NCBI GenBank assembly: GCA_023264975.1
Contig: JAHFUS010000018.1
Location: 2,333 to 56,661, forward strand
Direction: 5' to 3'
DNA: 54,329 nucleotides
From: Actinomycetes bacterium
GTDB lineage: Bacteria > Actinomycetota > Acidimicrobiia > Acidimicrobiales > GCA-2861595
Below the pieces are notes generated by a model. It worked only from the letters and a program-made list of their open reading frames with translations, had not been told where the DNA came from and ran no database searches. Shown in pieces: positions 38,660 through 52,738 of this stretch. The position numbers and the translations under genes are program-made. Position 1 is the first letter of the stretch, and each line of letters opens with the position of its first letter.

Positions 38660-39838
38660 GTGCCGTTCACCGCCGCCCTCTCCGAGCACCCGGTGCCCGC
38701 CACCGCCGTGGCGGAGGTGGCAGGTGAGGTGCTCGAGCGTCTGGGACCGGGGCCGGACCTGGCCGTGCTGTTCGTCACGCCGCACCACGCCGGTGCACTG
38801 GAAGATGCGGCCTCCGCCCTCGACGACATCCTTCGGCCGGGCACCCTCCTCGGGTGCGCCGCCGTCAGCGTGCTCGGCACGGCCAGGGAGGTCGAGCGGG
38901 CGCCGGCCGTGAGCCTGTGGGCCGGCCGCTTCGGGCCCACCCGGGCCGTGCGCCTCACGGCTGCCCGCACCCTCGACGGTGTGGTCGTCGAGGGGTGGCC
39001 AACCGACCTCGACTTCGATCCGGGCGCCTTCCTCCTTCTGGCCGACCCGTTCTCGTTCCCCGTCGACGCCCTGTACGCCGACTTGGCCGAGCGCCACCCC
39101 GGGCTCCCGGTGATCGGCGGCAACGCCTCCGCTGCCGTCGGGCCGGGTGGCAACCGCCTCGTGCTCGACCGCATGGTCCACACCGCCGGTGCAGTGGGTG
39201 TCCTCGTCGGTCCGGGCGTCGAGATCGAGACGGTGGTGTCGCAGGGCTGTCGCCCCATCGGCCGGCCCTACATCGTCACCCGGGCGGAGCGGGGCCACGT
39301 CTTCGAGCTGGCCGGTATCCCCGCCCTCGAGCGGCTGGTGCAGATGAGCGCCGACGGCATGTCCGAGGCCGACATCGACCTCATCGACAACGGCCTGCAC
39401 CTCGGTCAGGTGATCGACGAGCACAAGCTCGACTACGAACGGGGCGACTTCCTCGTGCGCAACGTGCTCGGCGCCCACCAGGCCGATGGCGCCATCGTGG
39501 TGGACGAGTTCGTCCCCGTCGGCGCCACCGTCCAGTTCCACGTGCGGGACGCGGCCACCGCCGACGAGGACCTCCGCCAGCTGCTCGCAGGCCGCGAAGC
39601 GGGCGGGGCGCTCGTGTTCACCTGCAACGGTCGCGGGGTACACCTCTTCGGTGCACCCGATCACGACGCCGCTGTGCTCGACGAGCGGGTCGGCGCCCCG
39701 GCCGCTGGGTTCTTCGCCGCCGGCGAGTTCGGTCCCGTGGGCGGCCGCAACTTCCTCCACAGCTTCACCGCCTCGATCGCCCTTTTCCGGGACGCAGAGC
39801 GGCCTGCTCAGCTACCCCCTCAGCGAGTGGCTCAGTAG
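38660..39838 (+). CDS. FIST-domain sensory protein
   Basis: 392 residues: a FIST N domain (to about 210: L-A-V-L-F-V-T-P-H-H, G-T-L-L-G-C-A-A-V, P-V-I-G-G-N-A-S) and a FIST C domain (about 215-375: H-V-F-E-L-A-G, G-A-L-V-F-T-C-N-G-R-G). FIST domains are thought to bind small molecules such as amino acids. No output domain is fused. GTG start. Its TAG stop forms part of a -10-like hexamer for tkt. Confidence 0.85.
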   Translation: MPFTAALSEHPVPATAVAEVAGEVLERLGPGPDLAVLFVTPHHAGALEDAASALDDILRPGTLLGCAAVSVLGTAREVERAPAVSLWAGRFGPTRAVRLTAARTLDGVVVEGWPTDLDFDPGAFLLLADPFSFPVDALYADLAERHPGLPVIGGNASAAVGPGGNRLVLDRMVHTAGAVGVLVGPGVEIETVVSQGCRPIGRPYIVTRAERGHVFELAGIPALERLVQMSADGMSEADIDLIDNGLHLGQVIDEHKLDYERGDFLVRNVLGAHQADGAIVVDEFVPVGATVQFHVRDAATADEDLRQLLAGREAGGALVFTCNGRGVHLFGAPDHDAAVLDERVGAPAAGFFAAGEFGPVGGRNFLHSFTASIALFRDAERPAQLPPQRVAQ

Positions 39839-39841
39839 GGT
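39836..39841 (+). promoter_or_regulatory. -10-like hexamer TAGGGT before tkt, overlapping a stop codon
   Basis: TAGGGT, 6 nt, then ATG 39848. The first three bases are the stop codon of the FIST gene. No SD is seen before the tkt ATG. Confidence 0.5.
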
Positions 39842-39847
39842 GGGCGC

Positions 39848-41836
39848 ATGAGCGAGACGGATCTGGAGCAGCTGGGCATCAACGTCATCCGCGGCCTGGC
39901 GATGGACATGCCGCAGGCGGCCAACTCGGGCCACCCCGGCACGGCGATGGCGCTGGCGCCACTGGCCCATGTGCTGTGGACCAAGGTGATGCGCCACGAC
40001 CCGAGCGAGCCCGACTGGCCGGACCGTGACCGCTTCGTGCTGTCCGTCGGCCACGCCTCGGTGCTGCTGTACTCCATGCTCTACCTCACGGGCTACCCGG
40101 ATCTCACCCTCGATGACCTCAGGAACTTCCGGCAGTGGGGCAGCAAGACCCCCGGCCACCCCGAGGTCCATCACACCAAGGGCGTGGAGGTCACCACCGG
40201 CCCCCTGGGCCAGGGCTTCGCCAACGCCGTGGGCATGGGCGTGGCCGAGCGTTTCCTGCGGGCACGGTTCTCGCCCGAGGTGTGCGACCACCACACGTTC
40301 GTGTTCTGCAGCGACGGCGACCTCGAGGAGGGCGTGAGCCACGAGGCGGGCTCACTCGCCGGCCACCTCGGCCTCGGCCGACTGGTCTACGTCTACGACG
40401 ACAACCACATCACCATCGACGGGCCCACCGAGCTGTCCTTCAGCGAGAACGTGCCCAAGCGCTTCGAGGCCTACGGCTGGCACGTGGACGACATCGGCCA
40501 GGTGGCGAACGACACCGGGGCCCTCGAGGCCGCGCTGCGGGGCGCCATGGCCGTCGAGGACAAGCCGTCGATGATCGTGCTGCGCAGCCACATCGGCTAC
40601 CCGTCGCCCAAGTACACCGACACCTCCGCCGCCCACGGCAACCCGCTGGGCGACGACGAGATCGCGATCACGAAGCAGCTCATGGGCCTCCCGGCCGACG
40701 AGAAGTTCTACGTGCCCGCCGAGGTGCTCGAGATGTACCGCCAGTGCATCCCCCGTGGCCAGGCCATTCGCCGGGAGTGGGAGCAGCGCCTCCAGGCATG
40801 GACCGGCGACCGGAAGCGCTACGAGGCATGCCTCGACGGCCGCGGCCTCACCGGGTGGGAAGCCAAGCTGCCCACGTTCGAGGCGGGCAAGGCCATGGCC
40901 ACCCGCAAGGCCAGCGGCGCGTGTGTGCAGGCCATCGCCGACGACGTGCCCGGCCTCCTGGCCGGCGGCGCCGACCTCACAGACAACACCGGCACCTTCC
41001 TCAAGGAGCACGGCGTGCAGTCGGCCGCCGAGCCCGGCGGGCGTCTCCTGTACTACGGCATCCGTGAGCACGCCATGGGCTCGCTCATGAACGGCGCTGC
41101 CCTGCACGGTGGCGTGGTGCCCGTCGGTGGCACCTTCTTCATCTTCAGCGACTACATGCGCCCCGCCGTCCGCCTGGCCGCCATCAGCGAGGCCAAGGTC
41201 GTCTACTCGTGGACGCACGACTCGGTCGGCCTCGGTGAGGACGGGCCCACCCACCAGCCCATCGAGCAGATCGCCGCCATCCGGGCCATTCCCCATCTGC
41301 GGGTCATCCGCCCGGCCGACGCGAACGAGACGGCCCATGCATGGCGGGTGGCGATCAACTCCGACGGCCCCACCGCCCTCCTCCTCACCCGCCAGGACGT
41401 GCCCGTGCTCGAGGGCACGGCCGACCGGGCCGACGATGTGGCGAGGGGCGCCTACGTCCTCGAAGCCGGGGCTGAAGATCCCGACCTGATCCTGGTGGGC
41501 ACCGGCAGCGAGGTCCACATCTGCCTGGGCGCGGCCGAGCAGCTGGCCACCGAGGGCGTGGTGGCGCGCGTCGTGTCCATGCCCTCGTGGGAGCTGTTCG
41601 AGGCCCAGGACGACGACTACCAGGAGTCGGTGCTCCCCTCCGACGTGCCCACCCTCGCCGTCGAGGCGGGCGCTTCGTTCGGTTGGGACCGCTGGGCCGA
41701 CGACTCGGTTTCCATCGACAACCGGTTCGGCGCCTCGGCCCCGGGCAAGGTCGTGCTGGAGAAGCTCGGCTACTCGCCCAGGAACGTGGCGGAGCGGGCG
41801 AGGGCCCTCCTGGCCGCCTTGGAGGACGAGGAATGA
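39848..41836 (+). CDS. tkt: Transketolase
   Basis: 662 residues, full length. ThDP-binding region H-x-S-A/V...G-H-P-E-V-H-H-T-K-G-V-E and the G-P-L-G-Q-G motif, G-D-G-D-L-E-E-G with D-D-N-H-I-T-I-D-G, and pyrimidine-domain motifs are all visible. It moves two-carbon units between sugar phosphates in the non-oxidative pentose phosphate pathway. Head of a seven-gene plus-strand group; its stop overlaps tal (ATGA). Confidence 0.95.
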   Translation: MSETDLEQLGINVIRGLAMDMPQAANSGHPGTAMALAPLAHVLWTKVMRHDPSEPDWPDRDRFVLSVGHASVLLYSMLYLTGYPDLTLDDLRNFRQWGSKTPGHPEVHHTKGVEVTTGPLGQGFANAVGMGVAERFLRARFSPEVCDHHTFVFCSDGDLEEGVSHEAGSLAGHLGLGRLVYVYDDNHITIDGPTELSFSENVPKRFEAYGWHVDDIGQVANDTGALEAALRGAMAVEDKPSMIVLRSHIGYPSPKYTDTSAAHGNPLGDDEIAITKQLMGLPADEKFYVPAEVLEMYRQCIPRGQAIRREWEQRLQAWTGDRKRYEACLDGRGLTGWEAKLPTFEAGKAMATRKASGACVQAIADDVPGLLAGGADLTDNTGTFLKEHGVQSAAEPGGRLLYYGIREHAMGSLMNGAALHGGVVPVGGTFFIFSDYMRPAVRLAAISEAKVVYSWTHDSVGLGEDGPTHQPIEQIAAIRAIPHLRVIRPADANETAHAWRVAINSDGPTALLLTRQDVPVLEGTADRADDVARGAYVLEAGAEDPDLILVGTGSEVHICLGAAEQLATEGVVARVVSMPSWELFEAQDDDYQESVLPSDVPTLAVEAGASFGWDRWADDSVSIDNRFGASAPGKVVLEKLGYSPRNVAERARALLAALEDEE

Positions 41837-42963
41837 CGGACGCCGGCGGCTCAAGCACCGAGCGCAGCCGGCTCCACGAGCTGTACGCGATCCACGGGCA
41901 GAGCCCCTGGATCGACAACCTGACCCGCACCATGATCGCCTCCGGCCACCTCCGGGACGTGGTGGACCGCGGCGTCCGTGGGGTCACCTCCAACCCCACG
42001 ATCTTCGCCAAGGCGTTCGAGGCGGGCACCGACTACGACGAGGCGTTCGCCGACCTCGTCCAGGTCCACAGCGTGGAGGACGCCTACTGGGAGCTGGTGA
42101 TCGACGACGTCCTGCACGCCCTCGAGATCCTCCGCCCGGTGCACGAGGAGAGCAGGGGCACCGACGGCTTCGTGTCCATCGAGGTGGCGCCCGCCATCGC
42201 CCACGACGCGGTGGCCACAGCCAGAGCGGCCCGGTTCCTGCACAGCCGCATCGACCGCCCGAACCTGCTGGTGAAAATCCCCGCCACCAAGGAAGGCGTC
42301 GCCGCCATCCGCACCATGGTGGGCGAGGGCGCCGACGTCAACGTCACCCTCATCTTCGGGCTGGAGCGCTACGACGAGGTCATCGAGGCGTACCTGTCCG
42401 GCCTGGAGGCGGTCGAGGGCGACCTCAGCGGCATCCAGGGTGTGGCCTCGTTCTTCGTGAGCCGGGTCGACACTCTGGTCGACCGCCTGCTCGACGAGAT
42501 CGCCACGCCGGAAGCCCTGGCCCTGCGGGGAAAGGTGGCCGTGGCCCAGGCCCAGGTCGCCTACCAGCACTTCCTCCAGGCGTTCTCGGGGCCTCGCTGG
42601 GAGGCGTTGCGGGCGCGCCGCGCCTGCCCGCAGCGGCCGCTGTGGGCCTCCACGTCCACCAAGAACCCCGCCTATCCCGAGCTCCTCTACGTCGACAGCC
42701 TGATAGGGCCCGACACGGTGAACACCATGCCGGACGCCACTCTTGAGGCGTTCGCCGACCACGGCACGCCCGCCCGCACGATCGACGTCGACGACGACGA
42801 GGCGCGCATCGTGCTCGAACAGGTCGCCGCCGTCGGCGTCGACATGGACGACGTGGCCATGATCCTCGAGGGCGAGGGCGTGGCGTCGTTCGCCAAGTCC
42901 TACGACGAGCTGCTGCAACGCCTCGACGACAAGGCCAACGCCCTCACCGGCGGGGCCGGATGA
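41833..42963 (+). CDS. tal: Transaldolase
   Basis: 376 residues, the longer actinobacterial type. Conserved G-V-T-S-N-P-T-I-F, and the Schiff-base Lys in L-L-V-K-I-P-A-T-K-E-G. It transfers dihydroxyacetone units in the pentose phosphate pathway. ATG overlaps the tkt stop; its own stop overlaps the pgi ATG, so tkt-tal-pgi are translationally coupled. Confidence 0.95.
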   Translation: MTDAGGSSTERSRLHELYAIHGQSPWIDNLTRTMIASGHLRDVVDRGVRGVTSNPTIFAKAFEAGTDYDEAFADLVQVHSVEDAYWELVIDDVLHALEILRPVHEESRGTDGFVSIEVAPAIAHDAVATARAARFLHSRIDRPNLLVKIPATKEGVAAIRTMVGEGADVNVTLIFGLERYDEVIEAYLSGLEAVEGDLSGIQGVASFFVSRVDTLVDRLLDEIATPEALALRGKVAVAQAQVAYQHFLQAFSGPRWEALRARRACPQRPLWASTSTKNPAYPELLYVDSLIGPDTVNTMPDATLEAFADHGTPARTIDVDDDEARIVLEQVAAVGVDMDDVAMILEGEGVASFAKSYDELLQRLDDKANALTGGAG

Positions 42964-44330
42964 CCGTGACGAGCGACGCCGGGACAGCAGAGCTGCTGGC
43001 CCGGCTTCGGGCCGGCGACGCCGGGCTGTGGCCCGAGGGCAATGTCTCGCCCAACCGGCTTGGGTGGATCACCGTCCCCGAGCGCATGCGCTCAGAGGCG
43101 GGGGACATCGGCGCATGGGCGGCGGGCATCGACGCCTCCAAGGTGGTGCTGCTCGGCATGGGCGGCTCGTCCCTCGGCCCCGAGGTGCTGCGGGCAGCGG
43201 TCGGCTCCGACCGGCTGGTCGTGCTCGACACCACCGAGCCCGAGACCATCGCTGCTGTCGACACGGACGACGCCTTCTTCCTCGTCTCGTCCAAGTCGGG
43301 CACCACCCTCGAGGTGATGGCGCTCCTGGCCCATTTCCGCGAGCGGGTGCCCGACGGCAGCCGCTACGCCGCCATCACCGACCCGGGCACCCCCCTGGCC
43401 GACATGGCCGCCGACTTCGGCTTCAACCGGCTGTTCGTCAACCCGCCGGACATCGGTGGGCGCTATTCGGTGCTGTCGTATTTCGGGTTGGTGCCCGCCG
43501 CCCTGTGCGGGATCGACGTGGCCGGGTTGTGCGACCGGGCCCTGGCCACTGAGGCCACCGCCGCCGTGGAACTCGGGCTGGCCGCTGCCCACGCGGCCAA
43601 GGACGGTCGCGACAAGCTCACCGTGGTGGTGCCCGAGCCGTTCGCCGCCTTCGGCCTGTGGGTGGAGCAGTTGGTGGCGGAGTCCACCGGCAAGCGGGGC
43701 ACGGGGTGCGTACCTGTGCCCACCACCGAGGTCGAGATGGGCGACGACCGCCACCTGGTGGCCCTCGAGCTTTCCGACCCGCTCGAGCTGGGCGCCGAGT
43801 TCTACAAGTGGGAGATCGCCGTGGCCGTAGCCGGCCACGCTCTCGGCGTCGACCCGTTCGACGAGCCCGACGTGGCGGTGGCCAAGGCCAACACGGCCAA
43901 GGTCCTGTCCTCGCTGCCGCTGCCCGAGCTCGAGTCGGCCGACCCTGCCGGCGTCACCGCCTGGCTGGAGGAGCAGGTCCGCCCCGGCGACTACGTGGCC
44001 GTGCTGGCCTACCTTCCCTACAAGCACGGCGACGCCCTGGAGCGGGTGCGCCACTCGCTGCGCGACGGCCTCGGGGGCATCGCCGTCACGGCCGGCTACG
44101 GGCCCCGCTATCTGCACTCCACTGGCCAGATGCACAAGGGCGGGCCCAACACGGTGGTGGTAGTGCAACTCGTGCCCCGCACGTCGGCGCCCTCGGTGCC
44201 CATACCGTCCCACCCGTACGACTTCAACACCCTCATCGAGGCGCAGGCCATGGGCGACCTCCAGTCGCTCGGGGAGCGCGGCCGGCGCGTCCGGCGCTTC
44301 GCGGTGGACGACCTGAAGGAGGTGCGCTGA
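42960..44330 (+). CDS. pgi: Glucose-6-phosphate isomerase (short type)
   Basis: 456 residues, shorter than the about 550 of typical PGI. SIS-domain motifs G-M-G-G-S-S-L-G-P-E-V and S-S-K-S-G-T-T, and the C-terminal G-Q-M-H-K-G-G are present. In some bacteria tal and a short pgi are fused into one protein; here they are separate but overlap by 4 bp, which keeps them stoichiometric. Confidence 0.9.
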   Translation: MTVTSDAGTAELLARLRAGDAGLWPEGNVSPNRLGWITVPERMRSEAGDIGAWAAGIDASKVVLLGMGGSSLGPEVLRAAVGSDRLVVLDTTEPETIAAVDTDDAFFLVSSKSGTTLEVMALLAHFRERVPDGSRYAAITDPGTPLADMAADFGFNRLFVNPPDIGGRYSVLSYFGLVPAALCGIDVAGLCDRALATEATAAVELGLAAAHAAKDGRDKLTVVVPEPFAAFGLWVEQLVAESTGKRGTGCVPVPTTEVEMGDDRHLVALELSDPLELGAEFYKWEIAVAVAGHALGVDPFDEPDVAVAKANTAKVLSSLPLPELESADPAGVTAWLEEQVRPGDYVAVLAYLPYKHGDALERVRHSLRDGLGGIAVTAGYGPRYLHSTGQMHKGGPNTVVVVQLVPRTSAPSVPIPSHPYDFNTLIEAQAMGDLQSLGERGRRVRRFAVDDLKEVR

Positions 44331-45298
44331 TCCGCATCGGCATGGTGGGCCTCGGACGCATGGGCGCCAACATGACCAGGCGCCTGGTCGACGCCGGCCA
44401 CGAGGTGGTCGCCTACGACCGTGACCTCACGCTGGTGGCGAAGGCGGCCGACGAGGGGGCCATCGGCGCCGCCGGCCTCGAGGAGATGATCGGCAAGCTC
44501 CCCGCTCCGCGTGCCGTGTGGCTGATGGTGCCGGCCGGCGACGTCACCCGGTCGGCCATCGACGCGGTGTCCGCCCTGATGGACGAGGGCGACACCATCG
44601 TCGACGGCGGCAACTCCCGGTTCACCGACGCCCAGGCCCGTTCGGCCAAGCTGGCCGGGAAGGCAATCGCCTTCGTCGACGCCGGCGTGTCCGGCGGTGT
44701 GTGGGGGCTGAAGAACGGGTACTGCCTCATGGTGGGCGGCGACCGTGACGCGGTGCGCCGGCTGGAGCCCGTGTTCATGGCCCTGGCCCCTGAGAACGGC
44801 TATGCCCACGTGGGGCCGTCGGGCGCCGGCCACTACACCAAGATGATCCACAACGGGATCGAGTACGGCCTGCTCCAGGCCTACGCCGAGGGTTTCGCCC
44901 TCCTCGAGGCGGCGCCCGAGTTCAACCTCGACCTGCACCGCATCGCCTCGTTGTGGAACCACGGCTCGGTGGTGCGCTCGTGGCTCCTCGAGCTCACCGA
45001 GCTGGCCCTCGCCAACCCCGATCAGTTCGCCCAGGTCAAGGGCGTGGTGGCCGACTCGGGCGAGGGTCGCTGGACGGTGGAGGAGGCGGTGAACCGCTCA
45101 GTGCCGGCTCCGGTGATCACCGCCTCGCTCTTCGCCCGCTTCGCCTCCCGGGACGAGGAGCGCTATGCCGCCCGCATCGTCGCCGCCCTGCGTAACCAGT
45201 TCGGCGGGCACTCGTTCTTCACCGAAGCCATGGCGGCCGAGGACCAGAAGGAGTCCTCCGACCACGACCCAGGCGATGTGACCACGCCAGAGACGTGA
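44327..45298 (+). CDS. gnd: 6-Phosphogluconate dehydrogenase (decarboxylating, short type)
   Basis: 323 residues. Rossmann G-L-G-R-M-G, substrate motif G-V-S-G-G-V-W-G-L-K-N-G, catalytic Lys in H-Y-T-K-M-I-H-N-G-I-E-Y. It oxidises 6-phosphogluconate to ribulose-5-phosphate. The family needs the strand I-R-I-G-M-V before the first Gly motif, so the ATG at 44342 would cut it off. The start is placed at CTG 44327 (overlapping the pgi stop) or ATC 44330, both preceded by a GGAGG at 44318-44322. Confidence 0.9.
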   Translation: MIRIGMVGLGRMGANMTRRLVDAGHEVVAYDRDLTLVAKAADEGAIGAAGLEEMIGKLPAPRAVWLMVPAGDVTRSAIDAVSALMDEGDTIVDGGNSRFTDAQARSAKLAGKAIAFVDAGVSGGVWGLKNGYCLMVGGDRDAVRRLEPVFMALAPENGYAHVGPSGAGHYTKMIHNGIEYGLLQAYAEGFALLEAAPEFNLDLHRIASLWNHGSVVRSWLLELTELALANPDQFAQVKGVVADSGEGRWTVEEAVNRSVPAPVITASLFARFASRDEERYAARIVAALRNQFGGHSFFTEAMAAEDQKESSDHDPGDVTTPET

Positions 45299-45311
45299 GC
45301 CGTCGGCCCCG

Positions 45312-46823
45312 GTGACCGACGCCAACCCGCTCCTCGAAGGGCTGGACTCCGATCGCCGGGCCCCGCCGTGTGTGCTGGTCGTCTACGGCGCCTCGGGCGA
45401 CCTCACCCAGCGCAAGCTGATCCCCGCCCTGGAGGCCCTGGCTTCCGACGGCCGCCTGTCCCCCGCCTTCGCCGTCGTCGGCGTGGCCCGCACCGAGATG
45501 ACCGACGAGGAGTTCCAGGCCCGTGTGCGCAGGGCCGTCCCCGAGGCCAGCGGGGCGTGGGAGGCCGTGGTGGGCAACTTCCGCTACGTCGCCGGCAGCT
45601 ACACTGGCGACGAGACGTTCGAGCGCCTCGGGCAGGTACTCACCGAGCTCGACGAGCAGGTGGGCACGTCGGGCAACCGGGTCCACTACATGGCCACCGT
45701 TCCCGAGGTGTTCGAGGGGGTCACCGCCGGCCTCGGCCGCCACGGCCTGGGCGAGCCCCGCGACGAGGGCTCCTTCGTGCGCCTGGTGATCGAGAAGCCG
45801 TACGGCCGGGACCTGGCCGGCGCCCTGCACCTGGACCAGGCCATCCACGAGGTGTTCCGGGAGGAGCAGATCTACCGGATCGACCACTACCTCGGGAAGG
45901 AGACGGTCCAGAACGTCCTCGCCCTGCGCTTCGCCAACGCCATCTTCGAGCCCATCTGGAACCGGCGCTACGTCGACCACGTGCAGATCACCGTGGCCGA
46001 GTCGCTCGGCATGGGCCACCGCGGCGGGTTCTACGAGACGGCCGGCGCCCTGCGCGACATCGTGCAGAACCATGTGCTCCAGGTGCTGGCCCTCACCCTC
46101 ATGGAGCCCCCTGCCACCATCGACGCCAAGGGCATCCGGGACGAGAAGGTGAAGGCGCTGCGGGCGGTCGACATCCCGGCGCCCGACGATGTGACCATCG
46201 ACGTGGTGCGCGGCCAGTACGACAGCGGCTGGGTGGAGGGCGAGGAGGTGCCCGGCTACCGGGAGGAGGAGGGCGTGGACCCGGCCAGCCGCACCGAGAC
46301 CTACGTGGCCATGCGGATGAGGATCGACAACTGGCGGTGGGCCGGCGTGCCGTTCTACGTCCGTACCGGAAAGCGCCTGCCCAAGCGGGTCACCGAGGTG
46401 GCCATGGAGTTCCAAGACGTCCCCCACCTGCCATTCGGCTCCAAGGAGACCCGCGGCCTCGGCCCCAACGCCCTGGTGCTGCGCATCCAGCCCGACGAGG
46501 GCATCTCGCTGCGCTTCGGCGCCAAGGTGCCGGGCCAGGCCTTCCGGGTACGCAGCGTGTCCATGGACTTCTCCTACGGCGCCGCTTTCCTGGAGGAGAC
46601 GCCCGACGCCTACGAGCGCCTCCTGCTCGACGCCATGGTTGGCGACCCCACCTTGTTCATCCGGGCCGACGAGGTGGAGCAGGCGTGGCGGATCGTCCAG
46701 CCCATCCAGGAGCTCTGGTCCGACGATGCCACCCCGCTGGCCCGGTACGGGGCCGGCTCGTGGGGGCCGAGGGAGGCGGACCGCCTCCTCGAACGGGACG
46801 GGCGGCGGTGGCGCAGCCCGTAG
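45312..46823 (+). CDS. zwf: Glucose-6-phosphate 1-dehydrogenase
   Basis: 503 residues. NADP-binding Y-G-A-S-G-D-L-T-Q-R-K-L and the catalytic R-I-D-H-Y-L-G-K-E are present, with E-K-P-Y-G-R-D. First step of the oxidative pentose phosphate pathway. GTG start 13 bp after gnd. Overlaps opcA by 16 bp. Confidence 0.95.
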   Translation: MTDANPLLEGLDSDRRAPPCVLVVYGASGDLTQRKLIPALEALASDGRLSPAFAVVGVARTEMTDEEFQARVRRAVPEASGAWEAVVGNFRYVAGSYTGDETFERLGQVLTELDEQVGTSGNRVHYMATVPEVFEGVTAGLGRHGLGEPRDEGSFVRLVIEKPYGRDLAGALHLDQAIHEVFREEQIYRIDHYLGKETVQNVLALRFANAIFEPIWNRRYVDHVQITVAESLGMGHRGGFYETAGALRDIVQNHVLQVLALTLMEPPATIDAKGIRDEKVKALRAVDIPAPDDVTIDVVRGQYDSGWVEGEEVPGYREEEGVDPASRTETYVAMRMRIDNWRWAGVPFYVRTGKRLPKRVTEVAMEFQDVPHLPFGSKETRGLGPNALVLRIQPDEGISLRFGAKVPGQAFRVRSVSMDFSYGAAFLEETPDAYERLLLDAMVGDPTLFIRADEVEQAWRIVQPIQELWSDDATPLARYGAGSWGPREADRLLERDGRRWRSP

Positions 46824-47917
46824 CGCACAGCGACCTCGACGGCTGGCGGGGCGAGGATGTGCGCCTCGGCCAGGTCCTCGACGCCCTGGCCGAGCTGCGC
46901 CACCACCGCCAGGGCGGCGCCACCCGGGCCAGCGTCACCAACCTTGTCGTGGTTTCGCGCCACGACGACGAGGTGGAGCAGGCGTGCGACGCCGTCCACC
47001 GACTCGGGCGGCGCCACCCCGGTCGCAACATCGTGCTCCTCGCCTCCCCCGGGGCCGGCCCCTCCCGCATCGACGCCGAGGTGCGGCTGCACGGATCGGT
47101 GGCGGAAGGGCACGCGGTGTGGTCGGAGGACGTCCGCCTGGTCGTCCAGGGCCCGCTGGCCGGCCATCTGGAGTCGCTCATCGAGCCCTTGACCCTGCCC
47201 GACCTGCCAGTGGCGGTGTGGTTCGTGAGCGGCCTGCCCGACCCGCACGATCCGCTCGTCCTGGCCGCCACCACCGTGGTGGTCGACGGCGACACCCTGG
47301 CGGACGCGACGTCGGTGGCGGCCATGGCCCGCCTGGCCGCCCGGCGGGTGGTGTTCGACCTGTGCTGGGAGCGACTGCGCCCGTGGCGCCAACTGCTGGC
47401 CGGTGCATTCGAGGTCCCCGCCGCCCGCCCGTTCCTGGCCGGGGTGACGCGCGTCGAGGTGGAGGGACCGCAGTGGCCCAGCGCCCTGCTGGGCGGATGG
47501 GCCGCCTCCCGGCTCGGCCTGCCCCCGTCGGCCATCGGGCGTGCGCCGGCGGCCACACCGGCCATCCGGTTGGTGGCGGAGCACGGCGGGCAGGTCGCCA
47601 CGTTCGTGGCCGAGCAGGCTGAGGGTGCAGGCGGGACCCCGGTCGTGCGGCTGGTGAGCAGCCTCGCCTCCCCCGGCGCCCGCCCGGACAGGCTCTCGTT
47701 GCCGGAGGACCCGACGGCCTGGGCGCTCGGCGAGGTGCTCACCCGCAGCGGGCGTGACCGGCCCGGGAGGTCGGTCCGTCAGGCAGCTCGCTTTGGGGCC
47801 ATCCCACAGGGATGGTCCACCGGCGACCGGGTGCAGGGCCAGGCGCTCCAGGCGGCCGTCGCCCTCGCCGGACCACCCCCACAAGCGGAGGCGTCCGCAG
47901 GACCACCGGCCTCATAG
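46808..47917 (+). CDS. opcA: OpcA-like glucose-6-phosphate dehydrogenase assembly protein
   Basis: 369 residues. Matches the OpcA family that supports assembly or activity of Zwf in cyanobacteria and actinobacteria: V-T-N-L-V-V-V-S-R-H-D-D-E-V, H-P-G-R-N-I-V-L-L, V-Q-G-P-L-A-G-H-L, L-P-D-L-P-V-A-V-W-F. GTG start inside the end of zwf; the longer upstream frame is the zwf shadow. Its TAG stop is the first part of the pgl -10 hexamer. Confidence 0.88.
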   Translation: MAQPVAHSDLDGWRGEDVRLGQVLDALAELRHHRQGGATRASVTNLVVVSRHDDEVEQACDAVHRLGRRHPGRNIVLLASPGAGPSRIDAEVRLHGSVAEGHAVWSEDVRLVVQGPLAGHLESLIEPLTLPDLPVAVWFVSGLPDPHDPLVLAATTVVVDGDTLADATSVAAMARLAARRVVFDLCWERLRPWRQLLAGAFEVPAARPFLAGVTRVEVEGPQWPSALLGGWAASRLGLPPSAIGRAPAATPAIRLVAEHGGQVATFVAEQAEGAGGTPVVRLVSSLASPGARPDRLSLPEDPTAWALGEVLTRSGRDRPGRSVRQAARFGAIPQGWSTGDRVQGQALQAAVALAGPPPQAEASAGPPAS

Positions 47918-47920
47918 GCT
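47915..47920 (+). promoter_or_regulatory. -10-like hexamer TAGGCT before pgl, overlapping a stop codon
   Basis: TAGGCT, 7 nt, then GTG 47928. The first three bases are the opcA stop codon. Same arrangement as tkt. Confidence 0.45.
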
Positions 47921-47927
47921 CCGCCGT

Positions 47928-48593
47928 GTGAACGGAGAGCTTCTCGTTGTCGACGACGTGGCGGGCAGCTTCGCGGAGTGCGTGACCGAGGCGTTCCGGC
48001 AGCGTGTCGGCGACGAATTCTCGTTCGCCCTGTCCGGCGGGGAGACGGCCCGGCGCTGCTACGAGCGGCTGGCCGCCGACTCGATCGAGTCCATGGACTG
48101 GTGGCTGGTCGACGTTTACTGGGGCGACGAGCGGTGCGTGGCGCCCGACCACGCCGACTCCAACGAGCGGCTCGGGCGCCAGGCGCTCCTGGAGAGGGTG
48201 GGTGGGGCCCAGTCGGTGCACCCGATGCGCTGCGAGGAGGGCCCCGACCCCTATCAGCTGCGGGTGGGCGAGCTGGGCCGCTTCGACGTCGTCCATCTGG
48301 GCCTCGGCAGCGACGGCCACACCGCCTCACTGTTCCCGGGCTCGCCGGGCCTCGAGGCCGACCCCGGCCGCCTGGTCGTCATGAACGAGGACCCGTCGGG
48401 CCGCAACCCCCACCGGCGCATGACGCTCACGCTCTCGGGCATCGCCCGGGCCCGCCTGGCCCTGTTCACCGTGTCGGGCGAGGAGAAGCAGGAGGCCATG
48501 CAGCGGGTGGCCGACGGCGACGACCTCCCGGCCGCCCGGGTGCGGGCCGACCGGGTCGTGTGGCTGGTCGACCCCGCTGCCGCGCCCCGCTGA
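47928..48593 (+). CDS. pgl: 6-Phosphogluconolactonase
   Basis: 221 residues. DevB/NagB-like fold: F-A-L-S-G-G-E-T-A-R near the N-terminus, W-W-L-V-D-V-Y-W-G-D-E-R-C-V, and G-L-G-S-D-G-H-T-A-S-L-F-P-G. It hydrolyses 6-phosphogluconolactone and completes the oxidative branch beside zwf and gnd. GTG start, probably leaderless. Confidence 0.92.
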   Translation: MNGELLVVDDVAGSFAECVTEAFRQRVGDEFSFALSGGETARRCYERLAADSIESMDWWLVDVYWGDERCVAPDHADSNERLGRQALLERVGGAQSVHPMRCEEGPDPYQLRVGELGRFDVVHLGLGSDGHTASLFPGSPGLEADPGRLVVMNEDPSGRNPHRRMTLTLSGIARARLALFTVSGEEKQEAMQRVADGDDLPAARVRADRVVWLVDPAAAPR

Positions 48594-48632: not shown

Positions 48633-48674
48633 TTCGTGTACGTGGCGGGACTCGTCCGCCGAAGGGAGCACGGC

Positions 48675-49517
48675 ATGAAGATCGGCATCGTAGGCAAGGG
48701 CGGCGTGGGGAAGACGACCACATCGGCGTTGCTGTGCCAGGTGTACGCCCGCCGGGGCCAGCGGGTCCTGGCCGTCGACACCGACTCCAATCCGAACCTC
48801 GCCCTCAGCCTGGGCCTCAGCCCCGACGACGCCGACCGCGTCCCCGTGCTGCCCCGCTCCCTCGTGGTGGGCACCGGCAACGGCGCCATCACGCCGGCCG
48901 ACCTGCTGCGTGACTACGGCGTGGCCACCCCGTCGAGCGTCACCCTCCTCAACGCCATGGCCATAACCCAAGCGGGGGCCGGCTGAACCTGTTCCAGCCA
49001 CGCTGCCGTGCGCAGCCTTCTGGGAGCAGCCATCGAGGAAGAGGCCGACGTCACGCTGGTCGACATGGAGGCGGGGCTGGAGCACCTGTCGCGCTCGGGC
49101 GGCACGCTGGCGTACGCCGACGTGCTCCTGATGATCATGGAACCGTCGCGCAAGTCGATCCTGACCGCCGGGCGCACCATCGCCCTGGCCCATGAGCTCG
49201 GCATCCCCCTCGTCTACGGCGTCGGCAACAAGGCCCGCATGCCCGAAGACAAGGAGTTCTTCGAGTCGGTGGCGGCCGAGTACAACGTGCCCCTCGCCGG
49301 CATCATCCCCCATGACCCCGACGTGATCGAGGCCGACCGCTCCGGCGAGAACATGTCCCTCGAGCAGGGCCTGCCGGTGCGCCAGGCGGTCGACGCCATC
49401 GTCGCCTTCGTCGACAAGGCCATCGCCGGCGAGAACCCCGGCCAGGCCGAGCGGGAGGCGTTGCTCAAAGAGCGCGAGCGGGTCGACAAGCGGCTCGCAG
49501 AGCTCAGCGCCGAGTAG
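48675..49517 (+). CDS. CooC-like P-loop ATPase with in-frame TGA (candidate selenocysteine)
   Basis: 280 codons if the in-frame TGA at 48984-48986 is read through; otherwise two fragments. N-terminal deviant Walker A G-K-G-G-V-G-K-T-T, then A-V-D-T-D-S-N-P-N-L, V-D-M-E-A-G-L-E-H-L (Walker B), and V-V-Y-G-V-G-N-K-A-R match CooC/MinD-type ATPases, which in CooC insert Ni into CO dehydrogenase. CooC has a C-x-C motif at the dimer interface (Cys112/Cys114 in Carboxydothermus CooC1). Here the frame reads A-G-A-G-(TGA)-T-C-S-S-H-A, so the stop replaces the first Cys at position 104. The frame stays open and well conserved on both sides. Selenocysteine is the favoured reading; a nonsense mutation or sequencing error (TGC to TGA) is the alternative. 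No CO dehydrogenase is in the window. Confidence 0.7.
48992..49025 (+). promoter_or_regulatory. SECIS-like hairpin downstream of the in-frame TGA
   Basis: Outer stem TTCCAG (48992-48997) with CTGGGA (49020-49025, one G-U pair), an internal loop, and an inner 5-bp stem GCTGC (49002-49006)/GCAGC (49012-49016). The apical loop is CGTGC with a G in its second position. The loop starts 20 nt after the TGA, inside the distance used by bacterial SECIS elements. Confidence 0.5.
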
Positions 49518-50306: not shown

Positions 50307-50451
50307 GGCGGGGACGCTAGCAAGACGCCAGGGCCCGATCCGGTCGCCCGGTTGCCTGGTCGCGCCGGCGGCACGGCCGGAATTCTCGCCGGCGAACCGC
50401 CGTGAACTTCGCAGGGATCTGCCGGACGGGCGGAGCGGCGGCTCCGGGACG

Positions 50452-50457
50452 TAGGTT
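50452..50457 (+). promoter_or_regulatory. -10-like hexamer TAGGTT before fbiC
   Basis: TAGGTT, 7 nt, then ATG 50465. Supports ATG 50465 as the start and a leaderless transcript; no SD is seen. Confidence 0.5.
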
Positions 50458-50464
50458 GTGGGTC

Positions 50465-52738
50465 ATGGGCCCGGACCTGCTGGCCGCCTCCCTGGCCGAC
50501 CTGGCGGCGGCGGCGGCGGCGGTACGGGACGAGGCCTACGGCCGGCGGGTGACCTTCTCCCCCAAGGTCTTCATCCCCCTCACCCGGCTGTGCCGGGACC
50601 GTTGCGGCTACTGCACCTTCGCCACCGCGCCGGCCCGCCTGGAGTCGCCGTACCTCTCCCCCGAGCAGGTGCTCGACATCGCCCGGGCCGGCGCCGCCGC
50701 CGGCTGCCTCGAGGCCCTGTTCACCCTCGGCGAGGCGCCCGAGGACCGCTACCCGGTGGCGGCGGAGTGGCTGCGGGAGCGGGGCTACGCCTCCACCGTG
50801 GACTACCTGGTCGCCGTGTGCGCCCTCGTGCGCGACGAGACGGGCCTGCTCCCCCACGCCAACGCGGGCGCCCTCGACGGCCGGGACCTGGCCCGCCTAC
50901 GCGAGGTCGCCCCCTCGCAGGGGATGATGATCGAGTCGCTCCGGGCCGACCTGGCCTGCCACACCGGGGCGCCGGACAAGACGCCCGAGCGGCGCCTGGC
51001 CACACTGGAGGCGGCGGGCGAGCTGTCGATCCCGTTCACCACCGGCATCCTGTGCGGCATCGGCGAGACCCGGCAGGACCGGCTGCAGGCACTGGAGGCC
51101 ATCGCCGGCTCGGCCCGCCGCCACGGTCACGTGCAGGAGGTGATCGTGCAGAACTTCGTGCCCAAGGCGGGCACGGCCATGCACCGGGCGGCGGCCTGCC
51201 CGACCGACGAGCACCTGTGGTCGGTGGCGGTGGCCCGACTCGTGCTCCCCCCCGAGGTGCACGTGCAGGCGCCGCCCAACCTGGCCGACGACTTCGGTCC
51301 CCTGCTCGACGCCGGCATCGACGACTGGGGCGGCGTCTCCCCCGTCACGCCCGACCACGTGAACCCCGAACGCCCGTGGCCCGCCCTCGACCGGCTGCGG
51401 GCGGTCACCGAGGAGCGGGGCTTCACCCTCGCTCCCCGGCTCACCGCCTACCCCGAGTTCGTGGCCGGCGCCGGCCGCTGGCTGGCGCCGACGACCCGCA
51501 CCGCCGTGCTCCACCGCAGTGACGCCGAGGGCCTCGGTCGTGACGACGCCACGTGGCACGCGGGCGCCGACGTCCGCCCGCCCGACGTCCTCGGCCCGAC
51601 CGGCCCTCCGGTCGGGCGCGTGCGCGGCGGCCGGGTGGCCGAGGTGCTGGAGGGCGTGACGGCGGGTCAGGAAGCCGGGGTCGGGGAACTGGTCGCGCTG
51701 TTCGGTGCCCGTGGGCCCGAGGTCCGCCAGGTGGCCGACGTGGCGGACGACCTCCGCCGGCAGGCCGTGGGCGACACGGTCACCTGGGTGGCCAACCGGA
51801 ACATCAACTACACCAACGTGTGCACGTTCAAATGCCGCTTCTGCGCCTTCTCCAAGGGCCCGCTGTCGCTGAACCTGCGAGGGGCGCCGTACCTGCTGGA
51901 GCTGGACGAGATCACCCGCCGCGTGGCCGAGGCCGAGGAGCGGGGCGCCACCGAGGTGTGCCTCCAGGGCGGCATCCACCCCAGCTTCGACGGCGACTAC
52001 TACCTCCACGTGATCGAGGCGGTGCGGAAGGCGTCGCCCGCCATCCACATCCACGGCTTCACCGCCCTCGAGGTGACCGAGGGGGCCAGGCGCCTGGGCG
52101 AGCCGTTGGCCGACTACCTGCGCCGGCTCATGGACGCCGGCCTACGCACCCTGCCGGGCACGGCGGCCGAGATCCTCGACGACGAGATCCGCGCCGTGCT
52201 GTGCGCCGACAAGGTGACCACCGACGAGTGGCTCGATGCGCATCGGGCCGCCCACTCGGTCGGCCTGCGGTCCAACGTCACCATCATGTTCGGCTCGATC
52301 GAGCGGCCGGTGCACTGGGCCCGTCACCTGATCCGCACCCGGGACCTGCAGAAGGAGACCGGCGGCTTCACCGAGTTCGTGCCGCTGCCCTTCGTGCACA
52401 TGGCGGCCCCGATCTACCTCCAGGGCAACAGCCGCCGGGGCCCCACGTTCCGCGAAGCCCTCCTGATGCACGCCGTCGGGCGCATCGCATACCACGGCTG
52501 GATCCCGAACATCCAGGTGTCGTGGGTGAAGATGGGCGTGCACGGGGCCCGCCAGGTGCTGCGGGCGGGGGCCAACGACCTGGGCGGCACCCTCATGGAC
52601 GAGAACATCTCCCGGGCGGCCGGCGCCGACCACGGCCAGGCAATGGACGAGGCCGGGTTCCGGGCGCTCGTCGAGCCGCTCGGGCGGCCGCTGGCTCAGC
52701 GCAGCACGCTCTACGCCCCGGTGCCCGCCTGCACGTAG
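50465..52738 (+). CDS. fbiC: 7,8-didemethyl-8-hydroxy-5-deazariboflavin (FO) synthase
   Basis: 757 residues: a CofG-like half and a CofH-like half fused. Two radical-SAM clusters: Cys43-x3-Cys47-x2-Cys50 (C-R-D-R-C-G-Y-C) and Cys453-x3-Cys457-x2-Cys460 (C-T-F-K-C-R-F-C). It makes the FO chromophore of coenzyme F420 from tyrosine and a ribityl-diaminouracil. The fused form is typical of actinobacteria, so the organism makes F420. An upstream ATG at 50402 exists but has no support. Confidence 0.96.
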   Translation: MGPDLLAASLADLAAAAAAVRDEAYGRRVTFSPKVFIPLTRLCRDRCGYCTFATAPARLESPYLSPEQVLDIARAGAAAGCLEALFTLGEAPEDRYPVAAEWLRERGYASTVDYLVAVCALVRDETGLLPHANAGALDGRDLARLREVAPSQGMMIESLRADLACHTGAPDKTPERRLATLEAAGELSIPFTTGILCGIGETRQDRLQALEAIAGSARRHGHVQEVIVQNFVPKAGTAMHRAAACPTDEHLWSVAVARLVLPPEVHVQAPPNLADDFGPLLDAGIDDWGGVSPVTPDHVNPERPWPALDRLRAVTEERGFTLAPRLTAYPEFVAGAGRWLAPTTRTAVLHRSDAEGLGRDDATWHAGADVRPPDVLGPTGPPVGRVRGGRVAEVLEGVTAGQEAGVGELVALFGARGPEVRQVADVADDLRRQAVGDTVTWVANRNINYTNVCTFKCRFCAFSKGPLSLNLRGAPYLLELDEITRRVAEAEERGATEVCLQGGIHPSFDGDYYLHVIEAVRKASPAIHIHGFTALEVTEGARRLGEPLADYLRRLMDAGLRTLPGTAAEILDDEIRAVLCADKVTTDEWLDAHRAAHSVGLRSNVTIMFGSIERPVHWARHLIRTRDLQKETGGFTEFVPLPFVHMAAPIYLQGNSRRGPTFREALLMHAVGRIAYHGWIPNIQVSWVKMGVHGARQVLRAGANDLGGTLMDENISRAAGADHGQAMDEAGFRALVEPLGRPLAQRSTLYAPVPACT

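Follow-up and report, generated by a model that had tools for sequence, protein, structure and literature searches.

The window, a 54,329-nt stretch from a draft genome of the order Acidimicrobiales, raises the question of whether a gene that appears to be broken in fact encodes a whole protein with selenocysteine (Sec) in a metal-binding motif. Positions 48675 to 49517 of the plus strand hold a single open frame, interrupted by one in-frame TGA at 48984-48986. The preliminary description had read this gene as a CooC-like, nickel-chaperone-type ATPase with TGA in place of the first cysteine of the C-x-C motif, and had therefore called it a candidate selenoprotein.

The window gene and its likeness to CooC1

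A Shine-Dalgarno-like AGGGAG (48663-48668) precedes the ATG, and translation through the TGA gives a product of 280 amino acids that contains the motif AGAG-U-TCSSH and ends at a TAG (49515-49517). This product matched the Pfam family CbiA (E = 3.8e-18), and no NCBIfam model scored above the cut-off for it or for its CooC-like paralogs. Residues 7 to 15 (48693-48719) form a deviant Walker A motif, GKGGVGKTT, which is the motif given for CooC1 (PMC6006190). The closest solved relative by sequence was CooC1 of Carboxydothermus hydrogenoformans (PDB 3kje, E = 6.7e-24). In the alignment with 3kje, the TGA, read as residue 104, falls on Cys112 and a TGT (48990-48992, Cys106) falls on Cys114, exactly as the preliminary description had placed them, and the two residues would together form a U-x-C pair. 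In the family alignment, position 104 was invariably C or U and position 106 was nearly invariant. The window protein and CooC1 share the position of the C-x-C motif, and no extra cluster cysteines were found. An AlphaFold2 model of the window protein (pLDDT 86) also had 3kje as its top Foldseek match; as its VIA-align Z scores tied CooC1 with MinD, FlhG and the Fe proteins of DPOR and nitrogenase, the fold by itself cannot single out CooC.

Judged from these features, the window protein would be a CooC-type protein, namely a MinD-type ATPase with a deviant Walker A in which the C-x-C is present as U-x-C. It resembles CooC1 (PDB 3kje, 3kjg, 3kjh, 3kji) in fold, in the Walker A motif and in the location of the C-x-C at the dimer interface, with an identity of about 30%, and differs from it in the predicted selenocysteine where CooC1 has Cys112. 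Unlike CooC1, the family has several paralogs per genome, some of them with two Sec or none, and the genomic context found for it is [NiFe] hydrogenase, whereas that of CooC1 is CO dehydrogenase (CODH).

The window gene itself is not in a hydrogenase cluster, and its neighbours are pentose-phosphate genes. The region directly upstream (38660-48593) encodes a FIST-domain protein, transketolase, a phosphoglucose isomerase-like protein, glucose-6-phosphate dehydrogenase and 6-phosphogluconolactonase. Near the selenoprotein region, at 50402-52738, lies a radical SAM gene with a CofH/MqnC-type C-terminal domain, which is likely FbiC-like.

Conservation of the frame and exchange of Sec and Cys

Seven genomes of the order encode an ortholog of the window gene with 72-94% identity, and all of these orthologs kept the TGA at the same codon. 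When the window gene was compared with these orthologs, dN/dS was below 0.5 on both sides of the TGA, which shows that the frame is conserved and under purifying selection past the TGA; the earlier view that one TGA splits a single frame with two intact halves thus held. Among about 230 family genes, premature stops of the motif region were all located within the C-x-C motif, and all were TGA save one TAG. The decay that the preliminary description had considered was not seen: homologs had Cys or TGA at exactly the motif position, with no premature stops elsewhere and no frameshifts in the relatives compared. Paralogous subfamilies carry TGA in cultured Pseudonocardia type strains too (L065, L066). 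Among cultured strains, the Sec paralog of Pseudonocardia kunmingensis DSM 45301 and P. nigra DSM 104088 has the form CPUCG. A sequencing error or a decaying pseudogene, as might be suspected from the single base that separates TGA from TGC and from the draft, metagenome-type assembly, is refuted for the family by this shared codon, by the intact frames and by the selection acting 3' of the TGA, and has next to no chance of explaining the window gene.

The window genome contains three TGA-bearing CooC-like genes, one of which has two TGAs; the paralogs among them have the motifs GGGUTGGSH (contig C45) and PGULUCG (C86, two TGAs). Its Cys paralogs have the motifs CSCANH (C102), CWCPAH (C54), CLCSSH (C79) and CLCCGSH (C101). 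Wider relatives with U or C at the motif position occurred in Actinomycetota, SAR324, Thermomicrobiales, Gemmatimonadota and Verrucomicrobiota. Mapped onto a 136-row tree, the Sec/Cys state changed 11 times, and at least eight of these changes were forced by well-supported branches. Sec and Cys have swapped at least eight times across five or more phyla.

By sequence, the Sec-bearing paralogs fall into what appear to be three to four subfamilies. The motif of subfamily II is U-T-G without a second Cys and that of subfamily III is U-x-U-C, so that the sets of ligands vary among paralogs. A small extra subfamily (L175:1094-, L177:513-; genomes G066 and G029) lacks motif cysteines and has its only Sec within RPG-U-GGLSAGQ.

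Each copy of the double-Sec paralog (ULUCG), or of its relative of the C101 type, adjoined a same-strand CooC paralog lacking any motif cysteine. This arrangement was seen in 37 pairs, represented by L007/L008 (G000:C86:17994-19531) and at least 30 other loci, and the two neighbours probably form a heterodimer.

Some further TGAs were rejected as Sec codons. L003 and L006 merely end with them as ordinary stops at the C-terminus; in L034/L059, the second TGA comes near codon 266, past the conserved region, and was taken as the true stop. The plasmid collection gave one distant match only to the family.

A conserved SECIS-like hairpin

In the window gene, a SECIS-like stem-loop (GCUGC-CGUGC-GCAGC) occupies 49002-49016, which corresponds to nt 19-33 counted from the T of the TGA as 1. 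It consists of a 5-bp stem and the loop CGUGC, with an apical GU at 49008-49009. The same arrangement was found throughout subfamilies I and II, where nt 19-23 pair with nt 29-33 and the loop GU is at 25-26. The preliminary description had proposed a hairpin with a G-containing apical loop that starts 6 nt after the TGA; the hairpin is real and the G is there, as part of GU, but the conserved element is situated at nt 19-33. A GU at almost this spacing is required in the SECIS of E. coli fdhF.

Of the 24 Sec genes in subfamilies I and II, 21 had the full 5-bp stem, as opposed to none of the 81 Cys homologs (Fisher p = 3e-19, the kinship of the rows being ignored). Over the 24 rows, 94% of the pair cells were paired and 25 cells were changed on both sides, i.e. 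by compensatory changes, and the covariation score was 0.557 against 0.307 ± 0.035 in shuffles. When the register of the stem was slid, the paired share dropped to 15-44%. Subfamily III has a 7-bp stem with an invariant loop AGUU at the same distance from its second TGA. In SAR324 rows L081/L084 and the Verrucomicrobia row L090, the full stem was not kept in the 19-33 register. The expectation that a bacterial SECIS would be found past the TGA was thus borne out by a hairpin conserved with compensatory changes. As the minimum-free-energy z-scores past the TGA were weak (mean -0.6 for Sec genes and 0.0 for Cys homologs), the argument rests on the fixed-register stem and on covariation, not on folding energy. 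Rfam gave no match anywhere in the 54,329-nt window.

One gene, L078:3034-3732 (minus strand), has TGC at the second motif position and a whole hairpin, in a genome without selA or tRNA-Sec above the cut-off. This hairpin is likely a fossil SECIS left after the loss of Sec.

Selenocysteine machinery and a shifted Sec codon

In the window genome (3.78 Mb in 139 contigs, 98% complete), selA and selB are neighbours, and selD and a tRNA-Sec gene (67 bits, anticodon TCA) are also present; all four genes by which the preliminary description proposed to judge the candidate were therefore found. Among 148 genomes of the order, selA was above the cut-off in 86, and in 18 out of 18 that have hydrogenase-type CooC genes (Fisher p = 4e-5). 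For L076, L078 and L079, which have Cys at both motif positions, the genome yielded neither selA nor tRNA-Sec above the cut-off. No tRNA-Sec above background was found in three Sec-CooC genomes, two of which have selA; because the genomes are drafts, a missing tRNA-Sec, or missing HypA/HypB, in a single genome is weak evidence.

A test that the preliminary description had not foreseen was provided by Geodermatophilus chilensis, in which the CooC-like gene (L077:6770-7468, minus strand) has TAG where those of its relatives have TGA. The sole tRNA-Sec-type gene above 60 bits in this genome has the anticodon CTA (CUA in RNA) and lies 0.7 kb from selA; ARAGORN names it tRNA-Pyl, going by the anticodon alone. 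Mukai and colleagues reportedly described UAG as a Sec codon in Geodermatophilus/Blastococcus in 2016. The joint change of the codon and of the tRNA-Sec anticodon gives independent proof of Sec decoding. It also speaks against decoding of UGA as Cys, Trp or another residue by a suppressor tRNA or a general reassignment. Given the Cys found at this position in homologs, a Cys-tRNA(UCA) would also yield a working protein, but 24 of the family's 53 Sec genes still end with UGA, the Sec machinery is complete and the SECIS-like hairpin occurs only alongside TGA or TAG; this explanation was rejected as highly improbable.

Taken together, the machinery, the Sec/Cys relatives, the hairpin and the Geodermatophilus TAG/CUA pair argue for the proposed selenoprotein. 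Selenocysteine at the TGA of the window gene is near certain, and its support is as good as sequence alone allows.

Linkage to [NiFe] hydrogenase and distribution of HypA/HypB

Hydrogenase, Hyp and CooC genes were surveyed in the 148 genomes of the order, 18 of which have hydrogenase-type CooC genes. A [NiFe] hydrogenase large subunit was encoded in all 18 CooC genomes and in 9 of the 130 others. Hydrogenase and hypCDEF genes are found no more than a few kb from CooC genes, and this also holds for those genes of G079, G029 and G135 that are direct orthologs of the window gene. The CooC loci encode the hydrogenase small and large subunits, a NifU-like protein, two HycI-type proteases, HypC, HypD, HypE, HypF, and SIS and TPR proteins. 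No Sec was found in the hydrogenase large subunit, which has ordinary RACGVC and DPCMPC motifs.

Two types of large subunit could be distinguished. Type A, which is CooC-linked and includes both hydrogenases of the window genome, is 49-77% identical to the L068 enzyme, and type B is 37-39% identical to it. The nearest solved relative of type A is the group 1h HofG (PDB 5aa5), at 487 bits; the HypAB-linked hydrogenases of the order (type B) fit HofG far better, at 1111 bits, and by bit scores type A is a sister of group 1h. Type A is 55% identical to the enzyme of the Marinovum algicola FF3 locus (L094), and this strain is reported to encode a group 1l hydrogenase (PMC10305171). By sequence, type A is probably group 1l.

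HypB was above the cut-off in 10 of the 148 genomes and HypA in 17. Neither was found above the cut-off in 13 of the 18 CooC genomes (drafts), the window genome included. The remaining five have both HypA and HypB, together with a second, HypAB-linked hydrogenase or with HypAB elsewhere; in the two of these that were examined (G004, G046), HypB is on the contig of the type-B hydrogenase. In genomes that have a hydrogenase, CooC and HypA are mutually exclusive to a degree beyond chance (p = 0.004). In G063, an incomplete genome, type A was present and CooC was not found. Five genomes (G018, G028, G049, G078, G092) have a group 1h-like hydrogenase and HypA, with no HypB above the cut-off and no CooC, so that the absence of HypB alone does not imply CooC; they may represent another gap in nickel insertion.

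The CooC family is defined by CODH maturation, and clostridial and archaeal relatives (L092-L138) are in loci without the hydrogenase genes searched for, which could mean that the selenoprotein matures a Ni-containing CODH or another nickel enzyme and that the hydrogenase link is incidental. We regard this as very unlikely, since a hydrogenase is encoded in every CooC genome of the order and type-A genes are found beside CooC in at least six phyla, with cases in Pseudomonadota, Gemmatimonadota, Chloroflexota and Thermomicrobiales, Marinovum algicola FF3 among them (PMC10305171). In Rhodospirillum rubrum, maturation of the Coo hydrogenase is reportedly not carried out by CooC (PMC6006190). For the family described here, a [NiFe] hydrogenase is a more probable client than CODH. 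Of the initial proposal of a nickel-chaperone-type ATPase, the Sec ATPase has stood; it is not a single gene but a set of three to four subfamilies, and its client has shifted towards hydrogenase.

Proposed role of the Sec-x-Cys site

In CooC1, the Zn site at the dimer interface is made up of both cysteines from each subunit, and Ni competes for it (PMC6006190). In the proposed mechanism, selenocysteine would fill the first position of the C-x-C, decoded from UGA under the direction of the hairpin at nt 19-33. If it behaves like CooC1, the protein may work as an ATP-dependent dimer whose interface would bind metal through two selenolates and two thiolates; this metal would most likely be Ni(II), or else zinc. 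ATP binding or hydrolysis would then shift the two halves and release the metal into the apo large subunit. The recipient would be a type-A, probably group 1l, [NiFe] hydrogenase, for which the role of HypA/HypB would be taken over. Selenium might provide a softer, more acidic and more readily re-reduced ligand, and thus a metal site that survives oxidation in aerobes.

Three observations suggest a nickel carrier for the type-A hydrogenase: the homology to CooC1, the linkage of the genes, and an occurrence complementary to that of HypA/HypB. The likeness to HypA/HypB, which insert nickel into [NiFe] hydrogenases, is one of proposed task only: HypB is a SIMIBI-class NTPase as well and has been compared with CooC (PMC6006190), and HypA/HypB are not homologous to the CooC-type ATPase at the family level. 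The sequence comparisons show Sec decoding, the motif position, Sec/Cys exchange and the linkage to hydrogenase loci and to the absence of HypA/HypB. The whole model of a Sec ATPase with a U-x-C metal site that loads the [NiFe] hydrogenase in place of HypA/HypB is considered likely, and the nickel insertion role, taken singly, reasonably probable.

The most serious competing explanation accepts the selenoprotein and assigns the U-x-C to redox or sulfur/selenium transfer, or to Zn or Fe-S binding, instead of nickel delivery. The corresponding interface binds 4Fe-4S clusters in NifH-like and NUBPL-like relatives. The nitrogenase and DPOR Fe proteins are fold neighbours with Z scores like that of CooC1, the ligand sets (U-T-G; U-x-U-C) are unequal between paralogs, a NifU-like protein is encoded in the same loci and Zn is also bound by CooC1 (PMC6006190). 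However, the closest solved sequence is CooC1, with the same C-x-C and without extra cluster cysteines, and the genomic exchange is with the nickel pair HypA/HypB. We consider this explanation unlikely, though worth weighing, and prefer nickel delivery to the hydrogenase.

Novelty and implications

A list of prokaryotic selenoproteins from 2022 comprises 16 verified and 71 predicted families, 87 in total (PMC9312934). There is no CooC/COG3640 or MinD-type entry among these 87, and no such protein among the nine new families of deep-Sep, 2025 (PMC12013277). Searches of the open-licence literature gave no report of selenocysteine in a CooC/COG3640, CODH accessory or group 1l context. CobW-like proteins (COG0523, U-x-x-C), which are metal-chaperone NTPases, and an E1-E2 cation ATPase (U-x-x-C) are likewise predicted selenoproteins with Sec at a metal site (PMC9312934, Table 1), but they belong to other families and have another motif spacing than U-x-C.

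The CooC-like ATPases would therefore constitute a new, well-supported selenoprotein family with three to four paralogous forms. Automatic annotation will truncate these proteins at the TGA, in cultured type strains and uncultured bacteria alike. The site would be an unusual case of Sec, as it would serve metal transfer instead of a catalytic centre, and it points to an answer on the nickel supply of group 1l-type hydrogenases without HypA/HypB. Whether a set of CooC-type ATPases, several with Sec and one with two, has replaced HypA/HypB for a widespread [NiFe] hydrogenase of the atmospheric-H2 type seems to us evenly balanced; H2 oxidation in aerobes would then be selenium-dependent with a hydrogenase that itself lacks Se. 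If true, aerobic H2 oxidation would be tied to the supply of selenium.
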